Shown here piece after piece: positions 6,362 through 63,872 of a stretch of 64,000 nt of DNA; position 1 is the stretch's first letter; each line of letters begins with the position of its first letter. The notes below the pieces were generated by a model. The model saw nothing but the letters and a program-made list of their open reading frames with translations. It was not told the DNA's origin and ran no database searches. The stretch is from Brachycybe producta (lineage: Eukaryota; Arthropoda; Diplopoda; Playtdesmida; Andrognathidae). The position numbers and the translations under genes were made by a program. The stretch covers positions 314,001 to 378,000 of the forward strand of contig JAUPFP010000002.1 of assembly GCA_036925085.1 (NCBI GenBank), read 5' to 3'.

Positions 6362-6365
6362 AATT

Positions 6366-6383
6366 TGGTGGAGGCGCCGGGTA
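6366..6383 (+). other. Primer binding site, tRNA-Ala-like
   Basis: TGGTGGAGGCGCCGGGTA lies just downstream of the LTR end. It is identical to the PBS of the unrelated near-intact family A copy. Its complement reads TACCCGGCGCCTCCACCA, which fits the T-stem/acceptor 3' end of a metazoan tRNA-Ala; the tRNA identity is from memory of that family. Confidence 0.65.
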
Positions 6384-6534
6384 GTTGAACATTTTGTTGC
6401 TCCCTAAGCTGCGGAAATCGTGTTGAAAAACATGCAGAAGAGAATCATCAACGTCAGAAACGACTAGTATTCAGAAACCACTCAAAGACCTGAGGGACCT
6501 CGAGAGACTGAGAGAGGAGAGCCGTTGAAAGAGG

Positions 6535-7620
6535 ATGACTGCTGCATTGAACAAAATCATCAGGAGACAGTGGACCCAACCGGAGGAGACCAGCGAAGAA
6601 AAGGAAATACTGCAACCCACTCCAGTTGTCATCAAGCCAGAGGTGCACTCCATTGATGGAAGCAGGATGCCAGAGGAAGCTGCCATTGCCAACATCATTG
6701 GAAAGCTGTCCAAGGAAAAACAGGATGAGTTGGTTCGTAAAATTTTGGGCAACGAACGAAGTGAGAAGAAAACAGGCTCAATCAACACTGAATTGGAATA
6801 GATTGAATCCGGGCGCAAGCCCAGTCTGGATGAAACTACCAAATGGACACCAGACCTGGGACCTACACCATACTCTGAGAGAAATTTGCTACATCCACTG
6901 CAGGGATTTACGAAATACGAAGGCAACGAGAACAACCTCCGCTACATGGAAGAATTCGAAGACATCGCTACCACACATGACTGGAACTCCCTGCACAGAT
7001 GCAGACACTTCACAGGGCTCTTGAGGAAGCATGCAATAAAATGGCTTGCACATTTTCGCTCACCTTATGAGATACAAGAGATCACCTGGTTGATCATGAA
7101 GGAGGGAATCATTGCTGAATTCCTCCTTCTGAACCAAAAAGTCCGCATGAATCGAGAGTTGATCAAGAGGTGTCAGCAAGACCACCACACTTTCCGGGTC
7201 TACGCTGAAAAGTATGCAGAAATGTATCGGAGGATTCATTCCAATGACAATGAATCTTTGCTGAAAGCTATGCTCTGAAAGAGTCTGCTACCAGCATTTC
7301 GAAAACATCTGTATGGGGCACAAAAGGATCGGTATTACGAGTTCATCAGCTTCACTACTCAAACTGAAGGTAAACTCGTTGATGAAAAGGAATTGATTTA
7401 CAAGACATCGGCTGGAACTACAACCAAAACGGGTGCAAGCCAGTCGATTCAAGCAAATCAACAAAGTCAACCTAAGGCGTCAAGCGGACAAGATAAGAAA
7501 TTGAACCCACCAGACAAGGAACATCACAACAGACTACCGATGTTGGGAGGCAGGCCACATTGGTCGTGACTGCCCAAATCCGGCAAGATCAAAACTGGAA
7601 CAAGAAAGGAGCGTTGCTGC
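6535..7620 (+). pseudogene. gag: gag remnant of family B2
   Basis: An N-terminal piece (6535-6801) and a capsid-like piece (6886-7278, in another frame) make up a gag-like protein. The second contains a retrotransposon-gag-type helical segment, with WLAHFRSPYEIQEITWLIMKEGII and a later YAEKYAEMYRR stretch. A downstream zinc-knuckle remnant at 7535-7573 reads YRCWEAGHIGRDC, so the first of the usual CX2CX4HX4C cysteines has become Tyr. A frameshift near 6800-6890 and a stop at 7276-7278 break the gene. It sits 150 bp downstream of the PBS, as expected for gag. It belongs to a Ty3/gypsy-type element by structure; the subfamily is unassigned. Confidence 0.65.
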
Positions 7621-15399: not shown

Positions 15400-15419
15400 C
15401 TCTAAATTGCCCATACCTC

Positions 15420-17957
15420 CTGCTGTGCCTGGGAAGTCTCTGGTTTCTGAGACAGTGTCCCAGTCTTCTGCACGTCTAGGATTACCGTCCGGTGTTTACG
15501 GTAAGGTGGACGGGATGCAGAAGGTTGATGGTTTGAACCCACGGGTTCCCATTCCTGAGCTTCAGAGCTGAGCCTACGATGTGGGTTCACCACAAGTGTG
15601 GGTGTCGATAGGCAATCGTCTCTTGGAGATGATCATGGACACCGGTGCCGACGTGTCGGTCTTAAGCATTGCGGTGGCACGAGTGATGGAGTTGCCTATA
15701 GAGGAACTGGCGGTTCCTTCATTCCTCCTTGTGGTTCCGCCTGCACTCGAGAAGGTTGACGGGTGGGTGAACATTGTTTCACAAGAGCTGCCCGAGACCA
15801 GAACCTCTATCGGGCGTGGATAAGTTTGTTCTCTGCGACTGAGGGAGAATGTCTGACTGCCAGGCCACGTATGACGTGTCGTATCCGTGATGTTGGTAGA
15901 GTATGCCAGCCCTGGCTAGCTGCTTCTTGTGGGGCCACAGCAGAAAGCCTTGGGTGGCAGGTATTGCCGCAGCCAACCGGCTTGGCACGTACAATATCTG
16001 GCTCGAGAACGTAGGAAATGCACCCATTGCCCTGGAAACAGGAAAGGGTGTAGCCACAGCTCAAGCTGTGGAGCTGCCCTGGTGGTAGGGCTGGAAGAGC
16101 CGTCTGAGTTGAGAGGGGGAGACCCCACTCAGGTGACAGTTCGACCAGGGGAGGCCTCGTCTAAGTTGAGAGGGGCATCCGGAGATGGATGCCAGATGCT
16201 CAATGTGACAACGGCACCCACTCTCGAAGAGTGTCTTAAGATTGGACCCAATCTGAAGCCTGAAGAGGTGAGACGACTTCAGGAGTTCCTGCTGGAACGC
16301 CGAGATCATTTCTCGTTCGACTTTACAGAGTTGGGTGAAACCTTTCTGGTCGAACATACGATTGATACCAGTGGGCAACCTCCAGTACGAAAAGGATTGT
16401 GTCGAACCGCTCCAGCGGCCAGGGTGATCGAGAGAAAAGAAGTGGCGAAGATGTTGGATGCAGGGGTTATCCAACTTCGTGTAGTCTCTACGCGAGCCCT
16501 ATCTTGCTTGTTCGCAAAAAGGATGGTGGCTTCCGTTTTTGTGTGGACTACCAGAAACTGAATGCCCAGATGAAGCTGGATCAGTATTTATCGCTTTGCA
16601 TCGATAATGTGCTCGATTCGCTGGCCGGTGCGAAGTTCTTTGCTACTTGGACCTGGCTCGTGGTTACTGGCAGGTTCGGATGGCTAAACCAGACATTGAG
16701 AAAACAGCATTTATTTGCTCTCAAGGTCTGTTTGAGTTCTGGAAACTGCCTTTCGGACTCTGTAATGCTCCAGCCACCATGCAGAGAGCGCTAGACTTCT
16801 TATTGGCAGGACATAAGTGGGAGACTTGTCTGGTGTACCGGGACGATATTATCGTCTTTGGGCTGTTACGAGCGGCGGAGCTAAAACTCCAGCCAAAAAA
16901 GTGCTTCTTTGGCTTTGACAAGGTTCGTTATCTCGGTCACGTAGTGAGTGCCGAGGGAGTTGCTCCGGACCCGGATCTCGTATGGGCAGTCCAGGAGTTT
17001 GATGTCCCGACGACGGTGACAGGCGTCCGCAGTTTTCTCGGACTTGCCGGTTACTATTGGAGGTTCATCAAGGACATCGCCAAGGTGGCAAGGCCTTTGC
17101 ATGATCTGACAAAGAAGGATGCGTCCTTCGAGTGGTCGGATCAGTGCAAACAAGCGTTTGCTCGGTTAAAGGCATTTTTAACCGAAGCGCCGGTGCTCAC
17201 CATGTATGACCCTCGTGGTGAGATAATGATACACACTGATGCTAGTGGGTACGGTTTGGGAGTCGTAGTCTACTAGAAGTTGCCGGAGGACAGTATCCCC
17301 CGGGTTCATGAAAGGAGCGGAAACACGGTATTCGGTCACTGAGCAGAAGTGCTTGGCGGTCATGTTTGCCGTTGGTAAGTTCCGTCCTTAACTCTTTAAC
17401 CAGGAGTTCGTGATCGTGACTGATCACCATGCTCTTTGCTATCTGCAGACAGCCAAGAACCTGCAAGGCAGGTTGGGGCATTGGTGGATGCAGCTTCAAG
17501 AGTACCGGTTTAAGGTTCAGTATAGGAAGGGGACACTGCACGTGTATGCCGACGCTTTGAGTCGGTATTCTGTTCGTGAAGTGGCGGACCTTTCCTTGCC
17601 TGAATACGTTGAAGCTGACGTAGGTGAGGTGATTTACCAAATCCGTTTCGAGGTGGATTGGGTCAAGGAGCAAGAAGCCGATGGCTGGTGCTTCAAGGTG
17701 AAGTAAGTGAAATCTTCCGTGACCCCAACTCGAACCTCAGGTTCAAGTTTGTGTTGGCAGACGACTTGTTGTTTGCCATCAGGTTCATCCAGGATCGGTT
17801 GAGAACTGTGCTGGTAGTTTCGAAGTCGAAGTAAGGAAGCTACAAAATATTCCCGAAGCTGGTCACTTCGGGATGTTTAAGACATACCAGAGACTGCGCT
17901 CACGCTTCTACTGGGTTGGTATGAAGCAGGACATGCCCGAATATGTTAAGTTATGTT
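15420..17957 (+). pseudogene. pol: pol remnant: PR, RT, RNase H, integrase zinc finger
   Basis: The protease motif DTGADVS lies near 15637-15660. The RT block is spread over shifted frames (15929-16561, 16399-16794, 16647-17276), and the RNase H start HTDASGYGLG is near 17233. The RT aspartate motif reads YRDD instead of YLDD near 16836. Compared with the near-intact copy, 45 bp are lost after IIVFG near 16862, bounded by tttggg and cttggg, which looks like slippage between short repeats. A TAG at 17274-17276, a missing stretch after it, and several frameshifts inactivate it. The integrase HHCC region is readable to EYVKLC at 17957, where the foreign block begins. Confidence 0.85.
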
Positions 17958-18652
17958 TGGGGCCCACCACGGTTTTGGTAGAAACCCAGGGTGGCCCATC
18001 ACCAGGTGTCCGGTCAAAGGTCTGACAAAAGTGGTCCAAGGACGGAGAAATCCGTCCGTAAAAGCCTCCAATAAAGCTTCCATTACTGTCAATGTAAGAG
18101 AATTGACGGTAAATGTCTCTCCCGCCATTTCCAGTCTTGGTGCAGGAGAATTCACCGTGTGTCTGCCCCTAAAAAGGCAGACGACGGTAAAATCTCCATG
18201 GTGACCATGCATGAGGCGGCTGATTGTGTTTTAGCAGCTACTGCATGGCCATTAGCCGCTAAGATGGTGAATTTGGTGGCTGGGCGCCATTTTGTTTATA
18301 ATAAAAATAAACAAAGCACGCCGGCCACACGTTGTCTTATTAAGACGCAAATTCACCGTCATAGAAGCTGTCCAAGCCGGGAAAAAGAGGACATCGAAAG
18401 AAAAGTAAGTCCCTCTAAGGGGATTTCCTTCACCTGCATGTTGGCAGTTCTCTTTTATGTGTTAACGTTGTGTTTTACGGTCAATGACCGTATTCACACA
18501 TGGTGGAAGTGGTTTTGCCGCCATGAGTGTCATCATGGTGGCCATACCACTTCGGAAAGCACTTTTCCGGCGGGTTGAGCCCGTCCAAGCGCCGTTTCGC
18601 TTGGGAAGTCCCAAGTTCGACGGTGTTTGGATGGTAGAATCCCACCAGAGTG

Positions 18653-21385: not shown

Positions 21386-21827
21386 GCAATGCCGGGATAG
21401 TTCGTCTAGCCTGGCGTGCAGCCCCATTCATCCAACATTTGCTGGGATGTGGCCTAGGAGGTATGGCAGGTCAGTTTATTACTGAACCATTACCAGGGTG
21501 TGAAACCGAGCCCGCGGTTGCCCTGGTAGACTCCTAACAAGTCGGACGCTTCACACTCGTCGGCAACTCCAGGATATTTTTTTCGAATAATTTCGAGCCC
21601 TGGAGGAAAGCCGTCTTAGGGGGATGGTCTTTGATCCTGGTTTTGGGTGGCGTAACACCCAGATGTGCCTGTGGTGGGCACGTTGGTGGGCTGTGGAGTG
21701 GATGGGCTCCACTTTCGCGACACCGCCAGGGAAGCCATCCGGTACCTAAGAAGGTCAGGTTCAAGGGAGCAATTGTGGCTGTCTCGACTGACCTGTTCCC
21801 GAGATGGAACAGTTAAGTTGAGAGGAT
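21386..21827 (+). pseudogene. pol: Family A integrase C-terminal tail and PPT
   Basis: Matches the last ~110 codons of pol in the near-intact copy (blocks equivalent to FIQRLLGC, GGMAGQFITEPLPGCETEPAVALVD and CLWWARRW), with a 27-bp loss near the left junction and stop codons. A purine-rich run ending gttgagaggat abuts the LTR at 21828, in the position of the PPT. Confidence 0.8.
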
Positions 21828-22658
21828 TGTGGCAACCTGGTCTGCTCATTTTCAAATTTTTGAATGAGCAGACGAATTTCCTATGGTGGTCTGCCTGACA
21901 GCTACAGTGAATGAGCAGACAAATTCCCTATGGTAGTCTGCTTGACATTTACAGTAGGCTGTTGGGACGGACGCCATTTTGGTGCCAGCAGAACTCTCAC
22001 CATGAAGTCTATGTGTGAGAGGTCAGATGTGACCTCTGTCCCCTCCAGGTGGAGTTGCCTGGAGGTTTCTTGTGGCATGGTCAGCCACAGGATCTGGGCA
22101 GTTGGTTGTGGGCAGCTGGACTGACAACATCGAGGGTGGAGGTCGGGGAGACCTCCACAGTAACCTTTGTTCATCTTTCTTTTGTGCCTTTTGGCCTGTT
22201 GGCCTCTATTTATATTAAGTGCTTTTCGGCTGGTCAAACGGACCAACCTTTATGTAAATATTATTACTGCCATCATTATCGTTTTGTCATAAGTGTATAT
22301 TTAACACTTTTATTCATCTACACTTGTGTCGTGTTTTTTTCCTTTAGGATTTACCGCGGGAGGGTGTTTTTCCGGTCTGGGGGAAAACACCACCATCCAC
22401 TTCCGTCTTGTATCGGCCGGTAATCGTGTTGGCTTGTGGTGAAACAGGGGTTTCACCGCGATATTCTCGGCGAGGCGGCGTTTTTCGTCTTGTTTCACCG
22501 TCGGGGAAGCTCCGCATCGCCACATCCCGAGGTTCACCGTGCAGAGGCGGCTACGGGTGCGGTCCCATCCCCGTCGTCAGAGCTTGGTCACCGGTAAGTG
22601 AGTCCGTTTTTACGTTTTTATTTACCGTGCATTGTAACGGTCCGGGCGGGACGTTACA
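21828..22658 (+). repeat. 3' LTR of the rearranged family A copy
   Basis: 831 bp, TGTGGCAACC to GTTACA. It is about 35 bp longer than other family A LTRs because an internal U3 segment is duplicated: atgagcagacgaatttcc... near 21860 recurs as atgagcagacaaattccc near 21910. Confidence 0.9.
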
Positions 22659-24840: not shown

Positions 24841-25300
24841 TGTGGCAACCTGGTTTGCTCAATCAAAATTTTTGATTGAGCAGACGAACTCCCTATGGTG
24901 GTCTGCCTGACAGCTTGCAGTAGGCTGTTGGGTCGGATGCCATGTTTGTACCAGCAGACCTTTCACCATCGGAGTCAATGGGTGAGAGGTCAGAAGTGAC
25001 CACTGTCCCCTCCAGGTGGAGTTGCATGGAGGTATAAATGGCCTAGTCAGCCATTTGTTCTGGGCAGTGTGTTGTAGGCTCTTAGCTGGTGACCATCTTC
25101 ATACTGGAGGCCAGGGTGGCCTCCATTGTTTCTTTGTTTTGTTTGGTTTTGGTTTTACTTTGTTTTCCATGGGGGCTTGGCTGGTGGATTGCACCAGCCA
25201 AGTTGTGTGGATAATTAACCACTGCTTTACCGTGGGGTGGAGGAATCTGTGGGGATTTCCACTCTCTATATCTGGCTTGTTTTGGCCGGTGCTCTTCCTG
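24841..25300 (+). repeat. Family A LTR fragment (3'-truncated)
   Basis: Starts exactly at TGTGGCAACC and follows family A U3 through the hairpin (ttggctggtggattgcaccagccaa, near 25178-25202). It then has a shortened R region and stops near 25300, after ggccggtgctcttcc. No GTTACA end or target duplication is present. Confidence 0.85.
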
Positions 25301-46195: not shown

Positions 46196-46994
46196 TGTGG
46201 CAACCTGGTCTGCTCCAATTTTGATTTTGATGGAGAATTTTCCTATGGTGGTCTGCCTGACAGCTACAGTAGGCTGTTGGGACGGACGCCATTTTGGTGA
46301 CAGCAGACCTTTCACCATGAAGTCTATGGGTGAGAGGTCAGAAGTGACCTCTGTCCCCTCCAGGTGGAGTTGCCTGGAGGTTTCCTGTGGCCTAGTCAAC
46401 CACAGGATCTGGGCAGTTGGTTGGAGGCTTGAACAGTGACTAGACCTGTGGGTGGAGGTCTGATTGACCTCCACTGTCCAGCATCTATTGGATCATCTTT
46501 TGTGCCTTTGGCCTGGAGGCTTCTTTGCCTTGTTTGTATATTTATGGGGGCTTTGCTGGTAGAAGTTTACCAGCCAAGTTGTGTAAATATTATTGCTGCC
46601 ATCATTTTGCATCTAATTCGTCGTAAGTGAATAAATCACTTTTAATCATCTTACCTTGTGTGTCGTGTCTATTTCTTGGAGAGTACCGCGTGGGAGGGTG
46701 GGATTGGCGGTTGGGGAATCACCACCGTCCTGCTACCGACTTGTTTCGGCCGGTACTCGTGTCGGCTCGCGGTAAAACTGGAGTTCTACCGCAATATTCT
46801 CGGCGAGGCGGCGGTCTTTCGTCGTGTTTCACCATCGGGAGAGCTCCGCGTCGGCACCACCCAAGGGGTGCACCGTGTGGAGAGGCAGCTACGGGTACGG
46901 TCCCGTCCCCGTCGTCAGAGCTCTGGTACCAGTAAGTGCGAGCGTTTTTAGAATTCGTTTACCGGGTATTGTAACGGTCCGGCGGGACGTTACA
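46196..46994 (+). repeat. Solo LTR, family A
   Basis: A 799-bp LTR from TGTGGCAACC to GTTACA in + orientation, with target duplication CTTG (46192-46195 and 46995-46998). It disrupts the CsRn1-like RNase H in antisense. Confidence 0.95.
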
Positions 46995-46998
46995 CTTG

Positions 46999-48247
46999 AC
47001 AGCAGAGTAGGCGGCAAGGAGTTTGCGATCATATGCTGACCATAAGAGTTGATTTGCACTGAGCTTCTTTGAGAAGAAAGCGAGAGGTTGCCAATCATTA
47101 TTGATAAGTTGCTGGACACTGGCACCGTAGGCAAAATTAGAGGCATTGACCATCAATGACAGAGGTACAGTGGGCACTGGGTGAGCAAGTAATGCTGCAT
47201 TGGCAAGGCTTTTCTTGAGGTTCTCAAATGCAGTGATTGTTTCTTCTGTCCATGAAATGGGTTGCTTGCTGGAGCGCTTGTGACCTTGAAGAAAGACATC
47301 TATATGTGCTTGGAATTAAGCTGCTTTCGCCAAGAAGCGACGATAAAAGTTAATCATCCCCAGGAATTGTCGAAGATCTTTGACAGTTGTTGGTAGAGTG
47401 TACTTCATGATGGTGTCCACTTTATCAGGTAATGGACGTGTTCCAGTGACATCAACGAGGTAACCCAAAAATTTATTGGAAGAAACTCCGAAGATGCACT
47501 TGGAAGGGTTGATTGTGACACCGTATGTGCTGAAACATTGGAAGAGTTGTCTAAGGTGGTCATGATGTTCATCATTGTTACGAGAGGCAATTAGCACATC
47601 ATCAATGTAGGCATAGCAGAGAGGTAAGTCTCTTGTAACTTCATTGATGAAGCATTGAAATGTCTGTGCTGCATTGCATAGTCCAAACGTCATACATGGG
47701 AATTCCCATTTGTGGATGTCTTCTTTAGCCACTGGAATTTGGTGAAAAGCTCGAACCAAATCAATAGCAGAGAAGATCGAAGAACCTGCTAAATTCTGTG
47801 TGAAGTCTTCAATGGGCGGAACTGGGTATCTGTCAGGGATGGTCCTGGAGTTGAGAGCACAGAAATCTCCACAAGGGCGCCATTCGAAATTTTTTATACG
47901 AACCATATGAAGTGGAGTTGACCAGTTGCTTTTGGAAGGACGGCAGATTCCGATTTGCAGCATGACTTTGAATTCACGTTTAGCAATGGCTAACTTAGAA
48001 CAGTCGAAACATCGTGGCTTGGCATAGACTGGTGGGCCAGGGGTTGTGGGAATATGATGCTCTGTCGTGTGTTGATGTCCTTTTGCATGGAGAAAGGTTG
48101 AGTTATGCTTGGAAATTCTGAGACAATGTTGTGATACTCAGAATCACAACTGACAGTTCGCAGGCCTAGTGTAGTAACACTATTGATGCACCCAGATGAA
48201 GAAAGACTGGTGGTGCTGTCTATGAGGCGTCGCTGTCCGAGGTCTGG
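46999..48247 (-). pseudogene. pol: RT and RNase H start of the CsRn1-like element
   Basis: The RT frame 47316-47963 has RPSKSNWSTPLHMV, GDFCALNSRTIPDRYPVPPI, FSAIDLVRAFHQIPV and the catalytic YIDDVLIA. The connection and RNase H (FLGMINFYRRFLA..., NASNFAYGASVQQLI, FFSKKLSANQLLWSAYDRKLLA) continue in other frames to the solo LTR. 48247-47964 holds the segment between protease and RT (DSEYHNIVSEFPSI). Stops at 48000-47964 and 47316 mark decay. Confidence 0.85.
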
Positions 48248-48251
48248 CAGT

Positions 48252-49046
48252 TGTAACGTCCCGCCGGACCGTCACAATAACCCCAGTAAGTTCACCCCAA
48301 AAAGGACGTAAAACTTACCGCTTAACCGGCTCCTTACGGGGACGGGACCGTACCCGTAGCCGTCTCCCACACGGTGCTCCTTGAGTTGTGTCGGCTCCAC
48401 GGAGCCACCCTCGATGGACACGGACGAGAACCACGCCGCCACGCCGAGAATATCGCGGTAGAACACCGGTTCTACCGCGAGCCGACACGAGGACCGGCCG
48501 AAACAAGTCGGTAATAGGACGGTGGTGATTTCCCCAAACCAGAAACCCACCCCCCTCGCGGTACTCCCCAAGAAAAGACTCGGACACAAAGTAAGATGAA
48601 TATAAAAGTGGATTTATTCACACTTACGTTGATTAGATGCATAAAACGATGGCAGTGATATTTACACAACTTGGCTGGTCAACTTCTACCAGCCAAGCCC
48701 CCATAAATATACAAACAAGGCCAACAGGCCAAAGGCACAAAAACAGAAGAGGCACTGGCCAGTGGAGGTCTCCTTGACCTCCACCCACAGGTCTAGTCTC
48801 ATGTACAGCCTACAACCAACTGCCCAGATCCTGTGGTTGACTAGGCCACAGGAAACCTCCAGGCAACTCCACCTGGAGGGGACAGAGGTCACATCTGACC
48901 TCTCACCCATAGACTTCATGGTGAGAGGTCTGCTGGCACCAAAATGGCGTCCGACCTAACAGCCTACTGTAGCTGTCAGGCAGACCACCATAGGGAAATT
49001 CGTCTGCTCAATCAAATTTAAAAATTGAGCAGACCAGGTTGCCACA
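48252..49046 (-). repeat. 3' LTR, family A (near-intact element)
   Basis: 795 bp, ending at the CAGT duplication. It contains the family hairpin ttggctggt/accagccaa near 48670-48697 and, on the minus strand, a tatatttatgggggc TATA-like run beside it. Confidence 0.95.
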
Positions 49047-49064
49047 ATCCTCTCAACTTCCCTG
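49047..49064 (-). other. Polypurine tract, family A
   Basis: On the minus strand cagggaagttgagaggat directly abuts the TGTGG start of the 3' LTR, where plus-strand priming is expected. Confidence 0.75.
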
Positions 49065-49123
49065 TTCCGTCTCGGGAACAGGTCAGTCAAGCCAGCCAGG
49101 ATTGCTCCCCGAACCTGACCTTC

Positions 49124-50053
49124 TTAGGTACCGGACGGCTTCTCTGGCGGTGTCGCGAAAGTGGAGCCCATCCACTCCGCAGCCCACCGACGTGCCCACC
49201 ACAAGCACATCTGGGTGTTACGCCACCCAAAACCAGTATCGAAGACCGTCCCCCTAAGACGGCTTTCCTCCAGGGCTCGGAATTCCTCGAAAGGAATATC
49301 CCGGAGTTGCGGACGCGTGTGAAGCGTCCGACTTGTTAGGAGGTCCACCAGGGCGACCGCGGGCTCGGTCTCGCACCCTGGTAGAGGCTCAGTTATAAAC
49401 TGTCCAGCCATACCTCCTAGGTCGCATCCCAGCAAACGTTGGATGAATGGGGCTGCATGCCGGGCTAGACGAACTATCCCGGCATCTAGCCCCACCACAT
49501 CCAAAATAGCAAACGTTTGCTGGACCGGAGCTGGAAGGAGATTATCAATCTCCATCCGGGGCTCACGGCCAAACAACAACTGATACGGAGAGACTTGCGT
49601 ACTCTCCTGGACAGCTGTGTTATAAGCCCACACGGCGGGCCGTAATTTATCCCACCAGTCATGCTGTTCCTTGAGGGGATCAAGGTACCGCTTGATGGTT
49701 TCCATTACGGTTTTATTTGTACGCTCCGTAAGCCCATTAGCTTGTGGATGGTACGCCGTCGTGAAGTGATGCGCTATGTTATAGCGCTCCCGGAACTTCA
49801 GCAGGACTTTGCTGGAGAACTGGGACCCACGATCCGAGACAAGAGCTTTCGGTGTACCATACACCGAAAAGATCTCGTCCTTCAGAAATTTCACCACACA
49901 GGCGGCCGTGGCCCTTCGTACCGCCCTTGCCACACCGTACCGGGTGAAATAGTCAACCATGATTAATACATAGGTGACTCCACCCACGGAGGCAGGAAAC
50001 GGTCCAACGAAGTCCATTCCCCAGGTATCAACTGGGTACTCCGGCACAATCGG
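49124..50053 (-). pseudogene. pol: Family A integrase core, downstream of a nonsense codon
   Basis: In frame with the rest of pol but separated by TAA at 50054-50056. It carries the DDE core: Asp in WGMDFVGPF, Asp in LVSDRGSQFSS and Glu in NGLTERTNKTV. The tail follows with SPYQLLFGREPRM and a C-terminal extension ending in a stop at 49124. All three catalytic residues are present and the frame is clean for 308 codons, so the single stop is the only lesion I can see. No chromodomain is recognisable in the tail. Confidence 0.9.
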
Positions 50054-53000
50054 TTAGAGAAATCCCTGACTTCGAGCGAACTGTCGCGCTCTCTGACACA
50101 CCAAACATGACTTAACATATTCGGCAGTGTCCCGCTTCATACCGATCCAGTAGAAGCGTGAGCGCAGTCTCTGGTAGGTCTTAAACATCCCGAAGTGACC
50201 AGCTTCGGGAATGTCATGTAGCTTCCTTAAGCAGAAAGCCCTGCATGACTTCGGAACTACCAACACAGTTCTCAACCGATCCTGGATGGATCTGATGGCA
50301 AACAACAAGTCATCTGCCACCACGAACTTGAACCGGAGGTTCGAGTTGGGGTCACGGAAGATTTCACTCTTCACTTTGGAGCACCAGCCATCGGCCTCTT
50401 GCTCCTTGACCCAATCCACCTCGGAACGGATGTGGTAAATAACCTCACCTACGTCGGCTTCGACGTATTCAGGTAAGGAAAGGTCCGCCACATCACGAAC
50501 AGGATACCGACTCAAAGCGTCGGCATCCACGTGCAGTGTTCCCTTCCTATACTGAACCTTAAACCGGTACTCTTGAAGCTGCATCTGCCAACGCCCCAAC
50601 CTGCCTTGCAGGTTTTTGGCTGTCTGCAGATAACAAAGAGCATGGTGATCTGTGACAATCACAAACTCCCGGTTAAAGAGGTAAGGACGGAATTTAACCA
50701 CGGCAAATATGACCGCCAAGCACTCCTGCTCGGTGACCGAATACCGTGTTTCCGCTCCTTTCATGAGTCGGCTTGCGTAGGCCAGAACACGGGGGACACT
50801 GTCCTCCGGTAACTTCTGGTAGACTACGACTCCCAAGCCGTACCCACTAGCGTCGGTATGGATAATTACCTCACCACGCGGATCGTACATGGTGAGTACC
50901 GGCGCTTCGGTTAAAAATGCCTTTAACCGAGCAAACGCTAGTTTGCACTGATCCGACCACTCGAAGGACGCATCCTTCTTTGTCAGATCGTGCAAAGGCC
51001 TTGCCACCTTGGCGAAGTCCTTGATGAACCTTCGATAGTAACCGGCCAGTCCGAGAAAACTGCGGACGCCTGTCACTGTCGTCGGGACATCAAACTCCTG
51101 GACTGCCCGCACGAGATCCGGGTCCGGAGCAACTCCCTCGGCACTCACTACGTGACCGAGATAACGTACTTTGTTAAAGCCAAAGAAACATTTCTTCGGC
51201 TGGAGTTTCAGCTCCGCCCCTCGTAACAGCCCAAGGACAGTGGAGAGTCTCTCGAGAAACTGCTCGAAGGTGTTCCCAAAGACGATAATATCGTCCAGGT
51301 ACACCAGACAAGTCTCCCACTTATGTCCTGCCAATAAGAGGTCTAGCGCTCTCTGCATGGTGGCTGGAGCATTACAGAGTCCGAAAGGCATTTTCCGGAA
51401 CTCAAACAGACCTTGAGAGCAAATAAATGCCGTTTTCTCAACGTCTGGCTCAGCCATCCGAACCTGCCAGTAACCACTAGCCAGGTCCAAGGTAGCGAAG
51501 AACTTCGCACCGGCCAATGAGTCGAGTGCATCATCGATGCGAGGCAACGGATACTGATCCAGCTTTGTCTGGGCATTCAGTTTCCGGTAGTCCACGCAAA
51601 AACGAAAGCCACCATCCTTCTTGCGGACAAGCAAGATAGGGCTCGCGTAGGGACTACGCGAAGGTTGGATAACTCCTGCATCCAACATCTTCGCCACCTC
51701 TTCTCTCTCGACTGCTCTGGCCGCTGGAGCGGTTCGACGCAATCCTTCACGCACAGGAGGTTGCCCACCGGTATCGATCGTATGTTCGACCAGAGAGGTT
51801 TCACCCAACTCTGTGAAGTCGAACGCGAAATGATCCCGGCGTGCCAGCAGGAACTCTCGAAGCCGTCTTGCCTCTTCAGGCTTCAGATTGTCACCAATGT
51901 TAAGACACTCTTCGAGGGTGGGAGCCGTCGCCACGTTGAGCACTTGGCGTCCGTTTCCGGACGCCCCTCTCAACTTAGACGAGGACTTCCCTGGTCGAAC
52001 CGTCCTCTGAGTGGGGTCTCCCCCTCTCAACTTAGACGGCTCTTCCAGCCCTACCACAATGGCAGCCTCCACTGCTTGAGCCGTGGCTACACCCTCTCCT
52101 GTTTCCAGGGCAATGGGTGCATTCCCCATGTTTTCAAGCCATATATCGTACGTGCCAAGCCGGTTAGCTGCAGCAATACCGGCCACAGCTAACACACCAA
52201 GTCCACCTAAGGCTTTCCGGTGCGGCTCCACGAGAAGCAGCTGGCCAGGGCCGGCATGCTCTACCAACGTCACAGATACGACACGTCGTACGTGGGCTGG
52301 TAGCCAGACATTCTCCCTCAGTCGCAGAGAACAAACTTCTCCGCGCCCGATAGAGGTTTTGGTCTCGGGCAGCTCTGGTGAAACAATGTTCACCCACCCG
52401 TCAACCTGCTCGAGTGCAGGCGGATCCACTGGGAGTTGCCGTCCCTGAGGCAAAGCCTCTGGTATCGGCGATGGAATTGCTTCCACCTCCCTAGGTTCTG
52501 CAAGCGCTCGATCGGTGAATGCAGCTTGGAGGGCGTCTGGATGTGCAGTCCAGACATCCTCCCGGAAGTAAACCTTCCGGTGCACGATATCAACCATCAA
52601 GCCGAAGCGTGAGGCGTGATCAACGCCCAACAACGCTTCCCCCTCTCCTTTTACCAAAAGGAGAGGCACCTTGATGGTTTTCTTGTGGATGGTCAATTCC
52701 ACATTTGTGACCCCTACTACCTCGATGGAGTGCCCACCCATTCCAAGAAGGAATGAAGGAACCGCCAGTTCCTCTATAGGCAACTCCATCACTCGTGCCG
52801 CCGTAATGCTTAGGACCGACACGTCGGCCCCGGTGTCTACGATCATCTCCAACAGACGATCGCCTATCGACACCCACACTCGGGGTGACCCTACATCATA
52901 GGCCCGGCTCTGAAGCTCAGGGATGGGAACCCTCGGGCTCCCACCATCGATCTTCTGCCTCCCGTCCACCTTACCGTCCACACCGGACGGTAATCCCAGA

Positions 53001-53389
53001 CGTGCAGAAGACTGGGGAACAGTCTCACCAACCAGAGACTCCCCAGGCACCACGGAAGGTTTGGGCACACCAACTCCTTCCGCCTGCTCGATGAGCGCAC
53101 GATCCAGCACCTCACCACTAGGCATATAGGGTGAGGGGGCAAACCAGCGATCCAGCTGGCTGCACACGGCCTCCAATGTGGAGCATGGCGATGGAAATAC
53201 CCACTGGGTAATTTCCGGGTCCGCAGACCTCGCCAGAGGCACTCCTGCCTTCCGCAGGACATCCACATATTTGGAGACCGCCCGGAGGTACGTCCCTCGT
53301 TCAGAGCTCAGGCCGTGACAGGCACCTGAGCTTTGAAGCTTTACCGGTCGCACACCACTCAGTTCGGTGGCGACCGGCGGCGGTTTAAC
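50054..53389 (-). CDS. pol: Family A pol: protease, RT, RNase H, integrase zinc finger
   Basis: The frame is open without an ATG and overlaps the gag end in the -1 frame. Residues are counted from the GTG at 53353: protease DTGADVS near 173; a beta-rich spacer about 300-430; RT with CVDYRKLN, TLDLASGYWQ (Asp ~623) and YLDD at ~685-688; RNase H with HTDASGYG (~832), the Glu of EQECLAV (~876), the Asp of TDHHAL (~901) and DADALSR (~943); integrase HHCC with His ~1046 and ~1053 and Cys ~1083 and ~1086. The frame ends at TAA 50054-50056, just past the zinc finger. Likely made as Gag-Pol by -1 frameshifting. Everything upstream of the stop looks functional. Confidence 0.92.
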   Translation of the reverse strand, partial: VKPPPVATELSGVRPVKLQSSGACHGLSSERGTYLRAVSKYVDVLRKAGVPLARSADPEITQWVFPSPCSTLEAVCSQLDRWFAPSPYMPSGEVLDRALIEQAEGVGVPKPSVVPGESLVGETVPQSSARLGLPSGVDGKVDGRQKIDGGSPRVPIPELQSRAYDVGSPRVWVSIGDRLLEMIVDTGADVSVLSITAARVMELPIEELAVPSFLLGMGGHSIEVVGVTNVELTIHKKTIKVPLLLVKGEGEALLGVDHASRFGLMVDIVHRKVYFREDVWTAHPDALQAAFTDRALAEPREVEAIPSPIPEALPQGRQLPVDPPALEQVDGWVNIVSPELPETKTSIGRGEVCSLRLRENVWLPAHVRRVVSVTLVEHAGPGQLLLVEPHRKALGGLGVLAVAGIAAANRLGTYDIWLENMGNAPIALETGEGVATAQAVEAAIVVGLEEPSKLRGGDPTQRTVRPGKSSSKLRGASGNGRQVLNVATAPTLEECLNIGDNLKPEEARRLREFLLARRDHFAFDFTELGETSLVEHTIDTGGQPPVREGLRRTAPAARAVEREEVAKMLDAGVIQPSRSPYASPILLVRKKDGGFRFCVDYRKLNAQTKLDQYPLPRIDDALDSLAGAKFFATLDLASGYWQVRMAEPDVEKTAFICSQGLFEFRKMPFGLCNAPATMQRALDLLLAGHKWETCLVYLDDIIVFGNTFEQFLERLSTVLGLLRGAELKLQPKKCFFGFNKVRYLGHVVSAEGVAPDPDLVRAVQEFDVPTTVTGVRSFLGLAGYYRRFIKDFAKVARPLHDLTKKDASFEWSDQCKLAFARLKAFLTEAPVLTMYDPRGEVIIHTDASGYGLGVVVYQKLPEDSVPRVLAYASRLMKGAETRYSVTEQECLAVIFAVVKFRPYLFNREFVIVTDHHALCYLQTAKNLQGRLGRWQMQLQEYRFKVQYRKGTLHVDADALSRYPVRDVADLSLPEYVEADVGEVIYHIRSEVDWVKEQEADGWCSKVKSEIFRDPNSNLRFKFVVADDLLFAIRSIQDRLRTVLVVPKSCRAFCLRKLHDIPEAGHFGMFKTYQRLRSRFYWIGMKRDTAEYVKSCLVCQRARQFARSQGFL
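53344..53389 (-). promoter_or_regulatory. Candidate -1 ribosomal frameshift signal at gag/pol
   Basis: GTTAAAC (53383-53389) lies in the gag frame as G TTA AAC. After a 5-nt spacer, CCGGTCGC (53370-53377) pairs perfectly with GCGACCGG (53344-53351), and the inner cacc/ggtg extends the stem by four pairs past one bulged base. The gag stop (53359-53361) is in the loop. The -1 frame is open from the heptamer into pol. Confidence 0.75.
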
Positions 53390-55134
53390 GAGGATCTCTC
53401 CTCGTCCTCCACGAGTCGATAGTAGAACTGGCCATCGTGAACGGTGGCCAGGTACTTACGACCCTCCAGCCAAACTGGTGCAACACCAGCGGTTGGCTGG
53501 AGGCTCTGACTTTCGTCAGGCACCACTCTAGCAACTTGCCCTTTGGCCGCAGCCTTCGGACAATCCTTCCTCAGGTGACCCATTTGGTTACACCCGAAAC
53601 AAGGACCTAGTCGCCGGAGTGAATCTCCCGTATGGTCCGTACCACGAGGCGTTGCCGCCGGCTGACCTCCGCCAGAGCCTGCCTGCTTCTTCTTCTTGCC
53701 TCCGGTCTTGGCTCCTGCTTTGTCCGACTTGGACGGTGCAGCAGCCTTCGCACCCGTTTGGCTTGAAGATGACGCCTTGGCAGCGCTCCCAGAGCTAGCC
53801 GTGGTTCCGGAGGACGGAGCGTTAGCCCTGTCCGGAGGAACCCCTCTTGTACGGGTAGGTAATTTACCTACAAGAAGCAAATCGGCTTCGACCAGCCGTG
53901 CCTTTCGGGCATATGCCTCCACCGTACCGGCCTTACAACCGATCAACTGATCAGTGATGGCCGTCTGGAGTTTCCGTTTGAAGCGAATGAGCCGACAGCT
54001 CTCGTCTTCGCCCGGAGACACTCGGTCGGACAGTTCCAAGAACCGCCAGTAGAATGCCTGTACAGACTCGGTAGCCCCCTGTTTCATGGACTCAAATTCA
54101 CCGAAACAGAGGCGAGCCTGATTGCTTGTGCTGAAGCGGCTACGCATAGCATCCTTCAGCTCCGTCCAGGTCAGGTCCGGAAGAGTTTCCACCAACGTGG
54201 CGTAATACTCTTCCGCCGGACCGTCCAGCAGAAACGTAAAGAAACTGCATCGGGATTTGTCCGTCCAGCGCTGAGCTCGGGCTTTCGCTTCGAACTTGCG
54301 GAGAAAAGGCGTCAAGTCCTCTCTGCCGTCGTAACGAGCAAAAGAGTGGACCGGGTTAAAGAACCCGAACGCCTGAACCTCCGCCGGAACCGCTGGAGCG
54401 GGCGTCCAAGCAGCGGCGCTAACCCTGCGAGGTTGCCTGCTCCGGTTCCCCGAAACGTCAGACTCCGACTCAGCTTCCGAGGGAATCATCATCTGAACCC
54501 TCGGCTGCTGTCCGGGTACAGCAGGAGCTCCCCGGCCAAGTCCCCGAGGAGACGGCCTGGGTGCTACCCGCGGAGGGACCAACCGGGGAAGTACCGGTGG
54601 TTCCTCTCGCCGTGCGCCTTCACGCACGGGCGACAGTGAGAACCGAGGTGCCACCCTCGGCTCAACCGACGACCGGGACAGTCGTCCTTCCAACCGAAGG
54701 ACATCTATCCCGTAAGCAATCTCAACGAGTTGCTGCTCGGATAGCCCGGCCAAAAAGGCCCGGCCCTCACGTGCAGTCTCGTCCGGGATTTCCACCATGT
54801 CCCTACGGGGCTGATCGCCACGTCCAACCGGACGGGCGACTGTGGAAACTTGGACAAGCGGCCGTGGCTGCTCGTCCTCCCCGGTGAGATCACCGTCGGA
54901 CCCACTGTCTTCAACCAGGTATTCCCCCGGACGGACGTCACGGCAGCGTTTCCGCACCGTGACCCAGTCCTCCGGGAGATCCCCGCCTATGCTACCGCTA
55001 GGTCCCTCTGTTTCCAGAGGATCCCCGCCTTCTGCCCCCACAAGGGGACGGTCGACTACGCGGCCGCGTAACTCTAACCCCGCATCTGCTCCAAGTTCCC
55101 GACCTCCCGTCGGTACTTTTGGGGCTGGCTCCAT
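53359..55134 (-). CDS. gag: Family A Gag, 591 aa
   Basis: Starts at an ATG after the hairpin leader (MEPAPKVPTGG). The N-terminal ~190 residues are charged and Pro-rich. The capsid-like helical region lies around residues 250-400 (AFGFFNPVHSFARYDGREDL, FLLDGPAEEYYATLVE, ESVQAFYWRFLELSDRV), as in retrotransposon gag domains. A Ser/Ala/Lys-rich linker precedes one CCHC zinc knuckle, CFGCNQMGHLRKDC, at about 512-525. The protein forms the particle and binds element RNA. The copy at 62097-63872 has the same length, with 34 differences by my count. No lesion seen. Confidence 0.95.
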   Translation of the reverse strand: MEPAPKVPTGGRELGADAGLELRGRVVDRPLVGAEGGDPLETEGPSGSIGGDLPEDWVTVRKRCRDVRPGEYLVEDSGSDGDLTGEDEQPRPLVQVSTVARPVGRGDQPRRDMVEIPDETAREGRAFLAGLSEQQLVEIAYGIDVLRLEGRLSRSSVEPRVAPRFSLSPVREGARREEPPVLPRLVPPRVAPRPSPRGLGRGAPAVPGQQPRVQMMIPSEAESESDVSGNRSRQPRRVSAAAWTPAPAVPAEVQAFGFFNPVHSFARYDGREDLTPFLRKFEAKARAQRWTDKSRCSFFTFLLDGPAEEYYATLVETLPDLTWTELKDAMRSRFSTSNQARLCFGEFESMKQGATESVQAFYWRFLELSDRVSPGEDESCRLIRFKRKLQTAITDQLIGCKAGTVEAYARKARLVEADLLLVGKLPTRTRGVPPDRANAPSSGTTASSGSAAKASSSSQTGAKAAAPSKSDKAGAKTGGKKKKQAGSGGGQPAATPRGTDHTGDSLRRLGPCFGCNQMGHLRKDCPKAAAKGQVARVVPDESQSLQPTAGVAPVWLEGRKYLATVHDGQFYYRLVEDEERSSLNRRRSPPN

Positions 55135-55149
55135 TTTTCACCGTAAATG

Positions 55150-55745
55150 AATGGTAAAATCTGGACAAAGCCACCAGATCTCGGGTTTCCACCGTCGAAA
55201 ACGGTAATCCCACGGACAAAAGTCCGTCAAATACCGTAACGAACGGATGGAACCGTGCAAAACCGCGGTATCACGGACAAAAGTCCGTGTCCCACGGTGA
55301 AGAACGGTCAGAGTTTGACCTTTACCGGTTTCTACCGCGGTATAACGGACAAAAGTCCGTCTCTCGCGGTGTACTTCACGGTAAAAGACCTTTTACCACT
55401 TTCTACCGTGGACCAACGGACAAAAGTCCGTACACCACGGTGTACTTGCGGTAAAATACCGTACACCACCAAAAACCACGGTACCACGGACCGTAGTCCG
55501 TGCCCCATGGTAATTCGACGGTACCAATACGGTTACCGACGGTAGATTTACCGTAAACCACGGTACAACGGACCAAAGTCCGTTCCCCACGGTATACAAC
55601 GGTAAATCAACGGTGAAACGGTCGTTTCCGCCGCTGTCCCACGGACCAAAGTCCGCGCCCAGTGACGTACTCTCACCGCACGGTGATTCGACCGACTTAA
55701 CGGTCGAACTCACGGTAAATCACCGTGCGAGAAGCGGGGTACAGG
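55150..55745 (-). repeat. Leader hairpin array of family A
   Basis: Seven inverted repeats of the form ACGGAC-4 nt-GTCCGT lie at 55212, 55273, 55345, 55416, 55486, 55568 and 55641 (each 16 bp), spaced 61-82 bp. They are embedded in runs of ggta/accgt words between PBS and gag. Confidence 0.92.
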
Positions 55746-55763
55746 TACCCGGCGCCTCCACCA
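55746..55763 (-). other. Primer binding site, tRNA-Ala-like
   Basis: On the minus strand, three bases into the internal region, it reads TGGTGGAGGCGCCGGGTA, identical to the B2 PBS at 6366-6383 and compatible with a tRNA-Ala 3' end. Confidence 0.7.
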
Positions 55764-55765
55764 AT

Positions 55766-56560
55766 TGTAACGTCCCGCCGGACCGTCACAATAACCCCAG
55801 TAAGTTCACCCCAAAAAGGACGTAAAACTTACCGCTTAACCGGCTCCTTACGGGGACGGGACCGTACCCGTAGCCGTCTCCCGCACGGTGCTCCTTGAGT
55901 TGTGTCGGCTCCACGGAGCCACCCTCGACGGACACGGACGAGAACCACGCCGCCACGCCGAGAATATCGCGGTAGAACACCGGTTCTACCGCGAGCCGAC
56001 ACGAGGACCGGCCGAAACAAGTCGGTAATAGGACGGTGGTGATTTCCCCAAACCAGAAACCCACCCCCCTCGCGGTACTCCCCAAGAAAAGACTCGGACA
56101 CAAAGTAAGATGAATATAAAAGTGGATTTATTCACACTTACGTTGATTAGATGCATAAAACGATGGCAGTGATATTTACACAACTTGGCTGGTCAACTTC
56201 TACCAGCCAAGCCCCCATAAATATACAAACAAGACCAACAGGCCAAAGGCACAAAAACAGAAGAGGCACTGGCCAGTGGAGGTCTCCTTGACCTCCACCC
56301 ACAGGTCTAGTCTCATGTACAGCCTACAACCAACTGCCCAGATCCTGTGGTTGACTAGGCCACAGGAAACCTCCAGGCAACTCCACCTGGAGGGGACAGA
56401 GGTCACATCTGACCTCTCACCCATAGACTTCATGGTGAGAGGTCTGCTGGCACCAAAATGGCGTCCGACCTAACAGCCTACTGTAGCTGTCAGGCAGACC
56501 ACCATAGGGAAATTCGTCTGCTCAATCAAATTTAAAAATTGAGCAGACCAGGTTGCCACA
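55766..56560 (-). repeat. 5' LTR, family A (near-intact element)
   Basis: 795 bp, tgtaacgtcc...gttgccaca on the + strand, with the CAGT duplication beyond it at 56561. It has the same length as the 3' LTR, and the two differ at three positions. Confidence 0.95.
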
Positions 56561-60668: not shown

Positions 60669-61467
60669 TGTGGCAACCTGGTCTGCTCAATTTTTAAATT
60701 TGATTGAGCAGACGAATTTCCCTATGGTGGTCTGCCTGACAGCTACAGTAGGCTGTTGGGACGGACGCCATTTTGGTGCCAGCAGACCTCTCACCATGAA
60801 GTCTATGGGTGAGAGGTCAGAAGTGACCTCTGTCCCCTCCAGGTGGAGTTGCCTGGAGGTTTCCTGTGGCCTAGTCAACCACAGGATCTGGGCAGTTGGT
60901 GGTAGGCTTTGAGACTGGATAGACCTGTGGGTGGAGGTCAAGGTAGACCTCCACTGGCCAGCTTCTGGTTCTTCTTTGTTTGCCTTTTGGCCATTAGGCC
61001 TTTGTGTATATATTTATGGGGGCTTGGCTGGTAGAAGTTTACCAGCCAAGTTGTGTAAATATCATTACTGCCATCATTTTCATCGTAATACGTCGTAAGT
61101 GAATAAATCACTTTATATCATCTTACCTCGTGTGTCTGTGTCTTTTTATTGGGGAAGTACCGCGTGGAAGGGTGGGATTACCGGTTGGGGAGTCACCACC
61201 GTCCTGTTTCCGACTTGTTTCGGCCGGTCTTCGTGTCGGCTCGCGGTAGAACCGGTGTTCTACCGCGATATTCTCGACGTGGCGGCGTGGTATTTCGTCG
61301 TGTCCGTCGGGCGTGGCTCCTGGAGCCGACACAACTCAAGGAGCACCGTGCGGGAGACGGCTACGGGTACGGTCCCGTCCCCGTGAGGAGCCGGTTGAGC
61401 GGTAAGTTTTACGCCGTTTTTGGAGTGAACTTACTCGGGTATTGTGACGGTCCGGCGGGACGTTACA
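60669..61467 (+). repeat. 5' LTR, family A (+ strand copy)
   Basis: 799 bp, TGTGGCAACC to GTTACA. A tatatatttat run is at 61007-61017, and an 11-bp perfect inverted repeat cttggctggta/taccagccaag is at 61023-61050. Confidence 0.95.
61007..61050 (+). promoter_or_regulatory. TATA-like run and hairpin in family A LTR
   Basis: TATA-like sequence at 61007-61017 is followed 6 bp later by a perfect 11-bp stem with a 6-nt loop (61023-61033 / 61040-61050). The hairpin is retained in every family A LTR here that covers it. Confidence 0.55.
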
Positions 61468-61469
61468 AT

Positions 61470-61487
61470 TGGTGGAGGAGCTGGGCG
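61470..61487 (+). other. PBS position, diverged
   Basis: TGGTGGAGGAGCTGGGCG: the first nine bases match the other copies' PBS, and the rest has changed (gcgccgggta elsewhere). Confidence 0.6.
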
Positions 61488-62096
61488 CCTGTACCCCACC
61501 TCTCGCACGGTGATTTACCGTGCATTCGACCGTTAAGTCGGTCGAATCACCGTGCGGTGAGAGTACGTCACTGGGCGTGGACTTTGGTCCGTGGGACAGC
61601 GGCGGAAACCACCGTTTCACCGTTAATTTGCCGTTGTTTACCGTGGGGGACGGACTCTGGTCCGTTGTACCGTCGTTAACGGTAAATTTACCGTCGGTTA
61701 CCGTATTGGTACCGTCGAATTACCGTGGGGCACGGACTACGGTCCGTGGTACAGTGGTTTTCGGTGGTGTACGGTATCGTACCGCAAGTACACCGTGGTG
61801 TACGGACTTCTGTCCGTTGGTCCACGGTAGAAAGTGGTAAAAGGTCTTGTACCGTGAAGTACACCGTGAGAGACGGACTTTTGTCCGTTATACCGCGGTC
61901 GAAACCGGTGAAGTAAACTCTGACCGTACTTTACCGTGGGACACGGACTTTTGTCCGTGATACCGCGGTTTCGCACGGTTCCATCCGTTCGTTACGGTAT
62001 TTGACGGACTTTTGTCCGTGAGATTACCGTTTTCGACGGTGGAAACCCGATATCTGGTGGCTTTGTCCAGATTTTACCGTTCGTTTACGGTGAAAA
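61488..62096 (+). repeat. Leader hairpin array, + strand copy
   Basis: Seven inverted repeats, the first imperfect: 61577, then acggac-4 nt-gtccgt at 61650, 61732, 61802, 61873, 61943 and 62004, each 16 bp. Spacings are 73, 82, 70, 71, 70 and 61 bp, the mirror of the order in the minus copy. Confidence 0.92.
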
Positions 62097-63872
62097 ATGG
62101 AGTCAGCATCAAAAGTACCGACGGGAGGTCGGGAACTTGGTGCAGATGCGGGGTTAGAGTTACGCGGCCGCGTAGTCGACCGTCCCCTTGTGGGGGCGGA
62201 AGGTGGGGATCCTCTGGAAACAGAGGGACCCAGCGGTAGCGTAGACGGGGATCTCCCGGAGGAATGGGTCACGGTGCGGAAACGCCGCCGTGACATCCGT
62301 CCGGGAGAATACCCGTTAGAAGACAGTGAGTCCGAAGGTGATCTCACCGGGGAGGACGAGCAGCCACGGCCGCTTGTCCAAGTTTCCACCGTCGCTCGTC
62401 CGGTTGGACGTGGCGATCTTCCCCGTAGGGATATGGTGGAAATCCCGGACGAGACTGCACGTGAGGGCCGGGCCTTTTTGGCCGGGCTATCCGAGCAGCA
62501 ACTCGTTGAGATTGCTTACGGAATAGATGTCCTTCGGTTGGAAGGACGACTGTCCCGGTCCACGGTTGAGCCGAGGGTGGCACCTCGGTTTTCACTGTCG
62601 CCCGTGCGTGAAGGCGCACGAGGAGAGGAACCATCGGTACTTCCCCGGTTGGTACCTCCGCGGGTAGCACCCAGGCCGTCTCCTCGGGAACTTGGCCGGG
62701 GAGCTCCTGCTGTGCACGGACAGCAGCCGAGGGTTCTGATGATGATCCCCTCGGAAGCTGGGTCCGTGTCTGACGTTTCGGGGAACCAGAGCAGACAACC
62801 TCGCAGGGTTAGCGCCGCTGCTTGGACGCCCGCTCCAGCGGTTCCAGCGGAGGTTCAGGCGTTCGGGTTCTTTAACCCGGTCCACTCTTTTGCTCGTTAC
62901 GATGGCAGAGAGGACTTGACGCCTTTTCTCCGCAAGTTCGAAGCAAAAGCCCGAGCTCAGCGCTGGACGGACGAATCCCGATGCAGTTTCTTTACGTTTC
63001 TGCTGGACGGTCCGGCGGAGGAGTATTACGCCACGTTGGTGGAAACTCTTCCAGACCTGACCTGGACTGAGCTGAAGGATGCTATGCGTAGCCGCTTCAG
63101 CACAAGCAACCAGGCTCGCCTCTGTTTCGGTGAATTCGAGTCCATGAAACAGGGGGCTACCGAGTCTGTACAGGCATTCTACTGGCGGTTCTTGGAACTG
63201 TCCGACCAAGTGTCTCCGGGCGAAGACGAGAGCTGTCAGCTCATTCGCTTCAAATGGAAACTCCAGACGGCCATCACTGATCAGTTGATCGGTTGCAAAG
63301 CCGGTACGGTGGAGGCATATGCCCGAAAGGCACGGCTGGTAGAGGCCGATTTGCTTCTTGTAGGTAAATTACCTACCCGTACAAGAGGGGTTCCTCAGGA
63401 CAGGGCTAACGCTCTGTCCTCCGGAACCACGGCTAGCTCCGGGAGCTCTGCCAAGGCTTCATCTTCGAGCCAAACGGGTGCGAAGGCTGCTGCACCGTCC
63501 AAGTCGGACAAAGCAGGGGCCAAGACCGGAGGCAAGAAGAAGAAGCAGGCAGGCTCTGGCGGAGGACAGCTGGCAGCAACGCCTCGAAGTGCGGACCGTA
63601 CAGGAGATTCACTCCGGCGACTAGGTCCTTGTTTCGGGTGTAACCAGATGGGTCACCTGAGGAAGGATTGTCCGAAGGCTGCGGCCAAAGGGCAAGTTGC
63701 TAGAGTAGTGCCTGACGAAAGTCAGAGCCTCCAGCCAACCGCTGGCGTTGCGCCAGTTTGGCTGGAGGGTCGGAAGTACCTGGCCACCGTTCACGATGGC
63801 CAGTTCTACTATCGACTCGTGGAGGACGAGGAGAGAAACTCGTTAAACCTCCGCCGGTCGCCACCGAACTGA
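62097..63872 (+). CDS. gag: Family A Gag, 591 aa (second copy)
   Basis: A complete frame from ATG 62097 (MESASKVPTGG) to TGA 63870-63872, collinear with the minus-strand copy without indels and about 94% identical. The same capsid-like region and a complete CCHC knuckle CFGCNQMGHLRKDC (residues ~512-525) are present. Differences cluster in residues 40-80 and 195-240, outside the capsid core. That pattern is consistent with selection on capsid and zinc knuckle, though I have not tested it. Confidence 0.95.
   Translation: MESASKVPTGGRELGADAGLELRGRVVDRPLVGAEGGDPLETEGPSGSVDGDLPEEWVTVRKRRRDIRPGEYPLEDSESEGDLTGEDEQPRPLVQVSTVARPVGRGDLPRRDMVEIPDETAREGRAFLAGLSEQQLVEIAYGIDVLRLEGRLSRSTVEPRVAPRFSLSPVREGARGEEPSVLPRLVPPRVAPRPSPRELGRGAPAVHGQQPRVLMMIPSEAGSVSDVSGNQSRQPRRVSAAAWTPAPAVPAEVQAFGFFNPVHSFARYDGREDLTPFLRKFEAKARAQRWTDESRCSFFTFLLDGPAEEYYATLVETLPDLTWTELKDAMRSRFSTSNQARLCFGEFESMKQGATESVQAFYWRFLELSDQVSPGEDESCQLIRFKWKLQTAITDQLIGCKAGTVEAYARKARLVEADLLLVGKLPTRTRGVPQDRANALSSGTTASSGSSAKASSSSQTGAKAAAPSKSDKAGAKTGGKKKKQAGSGGGQLAATPRSADRTGDSLRRLGPCFGCNQMGHLRKDCPKAAAKGQVARVVPDESQSLQPTAGVAPVWLEGRKYLATVHDGQFYYRLVEDEERNSLNLRRSPPN

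Follow-up and report, generated by a model that had tools for sequence, protein, structure and literature searches.

A regular array of hairpins with compensated outer stems in the leader of a Ty3/gypsy-type retrotransposon of the millipede Brachycybe producta

The leader of a long terminal repeat (LTR) retrotransposon of Brachycybe producta carries seven regularly spaced hairpins between the primer-binding site and gag. Comparison of related leaders supports a chain of hairpins in the sense RNA, in which each unit would have a near-invariant 6-bp inner stem with a tetraloop that is free in sequence and mostly rich in U, enclosed by an outer stem of about 7 bp that stays paired through compensatory changes or G.U wobble. 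We regard it as highly probable that this leader is a sense-RNA structure under selection and not merely palindromic DNA. The window analysed is a stretch of 64,000 nucleotides (contig JAUPFP010000002.1, positions 314,001 to 378,000); positions below are those of the window.

The hairpin array and its host element

A search of the window for ACGGAC-N4-GTCCGT with at most two mismatches gave 14 matches, against a mean of 1.05 in 100 dinucleotide shuffles, none of which reached 14. Seven of the matches form an array at 61577-62019 on the plus strand (copy 1), with units starting at 61577, 61650, 61732, 61802, 61873, 61943 and 62004 (spacings of 73, 82, 70, 71, 70 and 61), and the search thereby confirmed the seven leader hairpins, spaced 61-82 bp between the primer-binding site and gag, that had been noted in a preliminary description. 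That description had placed all seven in one ACGGAC-GTCCGT class, which holds exactly for six; unit 1 (61577..61592) reads GTGGAC-TTTG-GTCCGT, with two mismatches that both still allow G.U pairs. The loops are TTTG, TCTG, TACG, TTCT and, in three units, TTTT, so that four of the loops listed earlier (TTTT, TTCT, TACG, TCTG) are present while the fifth, TTGG, is absent, the loop of unit 1 being TTTG. The remaining seven matches are the same seven-hairpin array in a second copy of the element, at 55212..55656 on the minus strand (copy 2).

In each full unit, a small internal loop separates the 6-bp inner stem with its 4-nt loop from an outer stem of about 7 bp. Including the outer stem, unit 2 spans 61640..61676 (inner stem 61650-61665), unit 3 61722..61758 (61732-61747, TACG loop), unit 4 61792..61828 (61802-61817, outer stem ACCGTGG/CCACGGT), unit 5 61863..61899 (61873-61888), unit 6 61933..61969 (61943-61958, outer stem ACCGTGG/CCGCGGT) and unit 7 61994..62030 (62004-62019, outer stem ACGGTA/TACCGT), all on the plus strand. 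The earlier statement that the stem is constant and the loop variable is thus true of the inner stem, whereas the outer stem varies; the copy 2 array, the covarying outer stem and the related leaders had been left out of that account. Two further hairpins, a 7-bp stem GCACGGT/ACCGTGC and a 9-bp stem ATTCGACCG/CGGTCGAAT, lie 5′ of the array at 61505..61547 (plus strand).

In copy 1, the array is preceded by a 5′ LTR at 60669..61467 (plus strand; TG...CA, ends placed by eye) and a primer-binding site region, TGGTGGAGG..., read by eye at 61470..61486 (plus strand, approximate extent), and is followed by a gag open reading frame of 591 aa at 62097..63872 (plus strand), whose ATG is the first past the leader. 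The element extends beyond the end of the window. No tRNA was predicted by ARAGORN in either the window or the host mitochondrial locus. The COX1 match on host contig C442 contains ten internal TGA codons, suggestive of an animal mitochondrial code, and the order COX1/COX2/ATP6 looks arthropod-like; additional COX1-like stretches on contigs C1 and C17 are probably nuclear mitochondrial DNA copies. The 5′ LTR of copy 1 contained six perfect stems of 8-12 bp, compared with 0.0 in 10 shuffles; 61023-61050 and 61241-61268 are examples of these LTR hairpins.

Copy 2 has the organization LTR-leader-gag-pol-LTR over about 8.3 kb at 48252..56560 (minus strand, ends by eye) and is flanked by a 4-bp duplication, ACTG, also read by eye. 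As its two LTRs are 99.6% identical across 780 bp, the insertion appears to be recent. The LTR of copy 1 (60673-61465/6 used) showed 89.5-89.6% identity to those of copy 2, and the two gag products 94.2%. Pfam searches of three reading frames of copy 2, each searched separately, gave gag, protease, reverse transcriptase (RT), RNase H and integrase domains; the gag product matched Retrotrans_gag and, barely above the cut-off, zf-CCHC, and the pol domains follow the Ty3/gypsy order protease-RT-RNase H-integrase in two stretches searched separately. A PHROGs scan of gag gave no match. By its LTRs, pol order and CCHC-type gag, the element that hosts the array is a Ty3/gypsy-type LTR retrotransposon.

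The pol frame of copy 2 stops ahead of the integrase core, and copy 2 seemingly lies within a further gypsy-like element, of which a pol-like match with 30% identity covers 46998-48080. Other full or partial LTR copies of the lineage occur at 46200-46992, 8801-9572, 21832-22656 and 24845-25208 (76-92% identity in pieces to the window LTR), and related pol and integrase gene fragments at 1-1860, 15407-17959 and 21388-21746 (63-90% identity in pieces).

Leader families, covariation and probable selection on the stems

The host assembly (295 Mb, 442 contigs) contained 2341 exact copies of the motif, compared with 9 for a reversed-pattern control. Among the 50 matches listed, all on contig C1, 49 lay in leaders of families A, B or C and one (L018) was isolated. 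Leaders were grouped by eye into families A, A′, B and C. Family A is the window type, with seven units (eight in L015); A′ comprises L089-L092; family B carries eight units with the window stem together with variant-stem units, such as GTGGAC/GTCCAC and GCACGGT/ACCGTGC; and family C is older, with fewer recognisable units. The start of the primer-binding site is alike in the A, B and C leaders.

The copies compared were the 30 fetched from the best 40 matches per query, a sampling that biases them to young and intact ones. The preliminary description had proposed comparing hairpin number across copies; under lenient matching (up to 5 of 12 stem positions changed per unit, 2 nt spacing tolerance), unit order and spacing were retained in 33 of the 34 family A and 30 of the 32 family B copies tried, and the three copies that failed (L016, L065 and L008) were excluded from later counts. 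With at most two mismatches allowed, one unit was missing in two B copies (L072 and L076).

Gag products of families A and B share 50.5-52.3% identity over at least 532 residues in 17 of 30 B copies, the others matching in shorter pieces; an earlier value of 34.8% was discarded, as a copy used for it had a broken frame. RT/RNase H identity between A and B was 89% in two B copies, with pol placed by distance from the leader, and the RT piece of family C was not found in the one stretch searched (L096). A more distant element at 6361-7485, whose primer-binding site is almost unchanged and whose gag shows 23% identity, lacks the array in its leader; the array is therefore not universal among relatives. 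Among viral contigs, no relative was recovered by the array pattern or by an RT piece (11 pattern matches, none confirmed).

Pairing across the whole unit was scored in 55 units, drawn from ten leaders (the two of the window and eight at other loci). Compensated outer stems include ACCGTGG/CCGCGGT, ACCGTGG/CCACGGT, ACCGTAG/CTACGGT, GCCATAG/CTATGGC and ACGGTGG/TCACCGT. In the structure given above, 90.6% of cells were paired, a value that fell to 29-46% when the partner was slid; a few B-type units are one base off in register and were partly scored unpaired. Cells with both sides changed numbered 43, against 13.8 in shuffles, and the covariation score was 0.285 against 0.198 (0 of 500 shuffles equal or higher), although the 55 rows are related by duplication and descent and such kinship inflates covariation scores. 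Three of five covariation measures exceeded all 500 shuffles; double-change pairs (7 vs 5.6) and further pair types (23 vs 20.9) did not stand above them. Unit-to-unit identity was 0.98 in the inner stems, 0.66-0.67 in the outer arms and 0.33-0.34 beyond them, and linkers within arrays were near shuffled identity (0.54 vs 0.48 and 0.58 vs 0.50). A search of known RNA families gave a sole match, which lies outside the array and scored 20.9 bits where the gathering score is 53.

For an estimate of selection, a change private to one copy was taken as neutral and one shared by at least four copies as inherited from source elements; changes in two or three copies were kept outside the main tests and the outer stem of B unit 5 outside the scoring. 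Per site, private changes were similarly frequent in inner stems (0.20), outer stems (0.21), loops and internal loops (0.17 each) and flanks (0.28). Shared and private counts were 2:36 in inner stems, 6:38 in outer stems, 5:10 in loops, 9:17 in internal loops and 13:46 in flanks, and the inner stems differed from loops and internal loops combined (14:27; p 0.002). Changes that kept a pair, as against those that broke it, were 7:1 among shared and 28:49 among private changes (p 0.007), counts that are not independent, since units are kin by duplication and copies by descent. When changes in two or three copies were added, the contrast between inner stems and loops persisted (15:36 vs 33:27, p 0.008), and the ratio of kept to broken pairs (16:13) did not differ from that of private changes (p 0.12). 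As shared changes avoid the stems and private changes do not, the array is most likely under selection and not a set of neutral repeats. The preliminary description had named stems and loops evolving neutrally, or unit number collapsing freely, as signs that would speak against a functional array; tests on the fetched copies found neither, in line with constraint on the hairpins.

Sense RNA or a DNA site

The identity of the stems and the freedom of the loops would be explained most simply by mutual pairing of the units, and next by a DNA dimer site. According to the latter explanation, the array would be a series of dyad sites for a dimeric host DNA-binding protein, serving as an insulator, enhancer or chromatin anchor in the manner of the gypsy repeats, and we consider it unlikely. 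Its half-sites lie 10 bp apart, one helical turn, and are near-invariant around a free spacer, and there are precedents for protein sites in leaders: gypsy carries 12 repeats in its 5′ untranslated region that bind the insulator protein Su(Hw) (PMC4276936), HP1a interacts with the leader repeats of ZAM (PMC5408687), and MOF and MSL proteins were found at the copia leader (PMC2443393). CGG-CCG palindromes are also repeated in Sirevirus LTRs (PMC2829016). Against it, the outer arms vary from unit to unit with compensation, and the wobble at the first pair and the composition of the loop follow the sense strand, biases that a site in double-stranded DNA would not explain.

Among fixed non-CpG wobbles of the first pair, 408 were G.U (G.T on the sense strand) and 6 were A.C, with the strand assigned from TTTT/TTTG loops; the 408 derive from a few fixed units spread by transposition and therefore represent few independent events. 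CpG decay in dead copies is expected to be equal on both arms and served as a control, which gave 53 T.G and 75 C.A (p 0.06), leaning against G.U if anything. In the 55 units, G.U and A.C stood at 86:21, where base composition alone would give about 2:1, and private changes were evenly divided (23 G.U, 23 A.C). Loops on the sense strand had more T than A in 14 of 15 unit types, with one tie. Together, the wobble count and the decay control favour selection on a sense RNA. An added DNA role may coexist with it, as the nearly invariant inner dyad with its free 4-bp spacer resembles a dimeric DNA site.

Folding energy was discarded both as evidence and as a strand test: leader z values were -7.6, -9.6 and -13.3 (25 shuffles each), and 300-nt tiles of LTR and gag were as stable as the leader, with antisense z of the same order. 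In gag (62097-63872), three of five 300-nt tiles gave z of -5.5 to -6.6 in sense and -4.9 to -5.1 in antisense against shuffles. The lower energy of the unit majority in sense than in antisense (13 of 15) was set aside because of G- and T-rich stretches.

Possible roles of the array

The best explanation, which we advance tentatively, its functional part being conjectural, is that the hairpins of the full-length sense RNA would form a multivalent platform on which genomic RNA is selected and dimerised. As all inner stems have the same sequence, a 5′ arm could find its partner in the 3′ arm of any unit, on the same molecule or on a second one, and the array would then pass from local hairpins, which leave the RNA open to translation, to a cross-paired or dimeric RNA that Gag would bind through its zinc-knuckle end. 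The leader sequence permits both states in model folds: when the complete leader was folded to minimum energy, unit 2 cross-paired with unit 5 in the two A copies and unit 4 with unit 6 in B, all other units remaining local, whereas with pairs limited to 120 nt the local inner stems formed (probability >0.6) in 5 of 7 units of copy 1, 7 of 7 of copy 2 and 8 of 8 of B. Kissing-loop dimers are an improbable route, as no common loop was self-complementary by inspection. An invariant inner stem with a variable loop suggests either pairing between units or readout of the stem; hairpins read by proteins usually show the reverse, with the loop constrained and not the stem. Recognition by Gag fits poorly with an inner stem that stays constant while Gag is about 52% identical between A and B. 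In its boldest form, which we think improbable, the array would be a new genome-recognition device, in which seven or more copies of a self-complementary stem would let a translatable local chain interchange with a cross-paired, multivalent dimer or condensate, the loops being free since only the identity of the stems would matter.

Control of translation, a doubtful alternative to such a platform, would have the AUG-poor hairpin leader slow or redirect ribosomes by slow scanning, shunting or internal entry, and so set how much of the RNA is translated relative to how much is replicated. ATG is absent from the window leader (4.4 expected) and from the R-U5 region (4.1 expected; extent taken from an RNA start inferred from a TATA-like stretch), with 4 of 500 shuffles as low in each case, while CAT is not depleted; ATG is also scarce in the leaders of copy 2 (1 vs 4.6) and family B (2 vs 7.1), and gypsy has been reported to have two internal ribosome entry sites (PMC4276936). 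However, avoidance of AUG suggests only scanning to the gag AUG and leaves the invariant stems unexplained, and TAG is depleted as well in A, not in B, so that composition may contribute.

A platform for a host RNA-binding protein, acting in export, stability or shelter from silencing, appears rather unlikely. The inner stem would then be read by slowly changing host factors and not by Gag, which agrees with its constancy despite the divergence of Gag; on the other hand, sequence-specific recognition of RNA stems is rare. Neutral tandem duplication of a functionless chance hairpin by template switching is very improbable and poorly compatible with the present data: the families do differ in unit number (seven or eight for A, a higher number for B and few that can be recognised in C copies), and other LTR elements also have repeats in their leaders (PMC5408687), but the linkers are near shuffled identity where inner stems are 98% identical, shared changes avoid the stems, and nearly all copies tried retain the array.

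Retroviral and Ty1 packaging leaders have few distinct hairpins, often with kissing loops, and no regular array of one hairpin. Like the millipede leader they are structured, and they carry packaging signals in cis (for Ty1, PMC5454406). The Drosophila gypsy leader likewise has repeated short sites in a Ty3/gypsy 5′ untranslated region, but these are reported to be sites for an insulator protein (PMC4276936), whereas in the sense RNA of the millipede element the units are dyads in which compensation appears to preserve pairing. Tirant and ZAM of Drosophila also carry tandem leader modules, variable in number in Tirant, where their role is given as unclear; these are modules of 102 bp and 307 bp, and the section describing them does not mention hairpins (PMC5408687). 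The motif of the Sireviruses, plant Ty1/copia elements, is similarly a dyad in many copies with a CGG-CCG core (e.g. CGGACCGTCCG), but it lies in LTRs and before env, in another superfamily and kingdom, and is proposed to form regulatory boxes; the sections describing it contain no compensated outer stem (PMC2829016). With its Ty3/gypsy domain order and its position in the leader, the millipede array does not belong to the Sirevirus motif. Among the titles and abstract openings searched, in a literature coverage mostly outside subscription journals, none describes such a leader hairpin array.

Beyond yeast and the retroviruses, little is understood, to our knowledge, about how LTR retrotransposons keep translated and packaged RNAs apart. 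With its regularity, its compensated stems and its natural variation in unit number, the array would allow each unit to be tested on its own. Leader repeats that are commonly read as DNA sites merit a check for RNA pairing, and the comparison of G.U with A.C, controlled by decay in dead copies, can be applied to the repeats of gypsy, Tirant and the Sireviruses.
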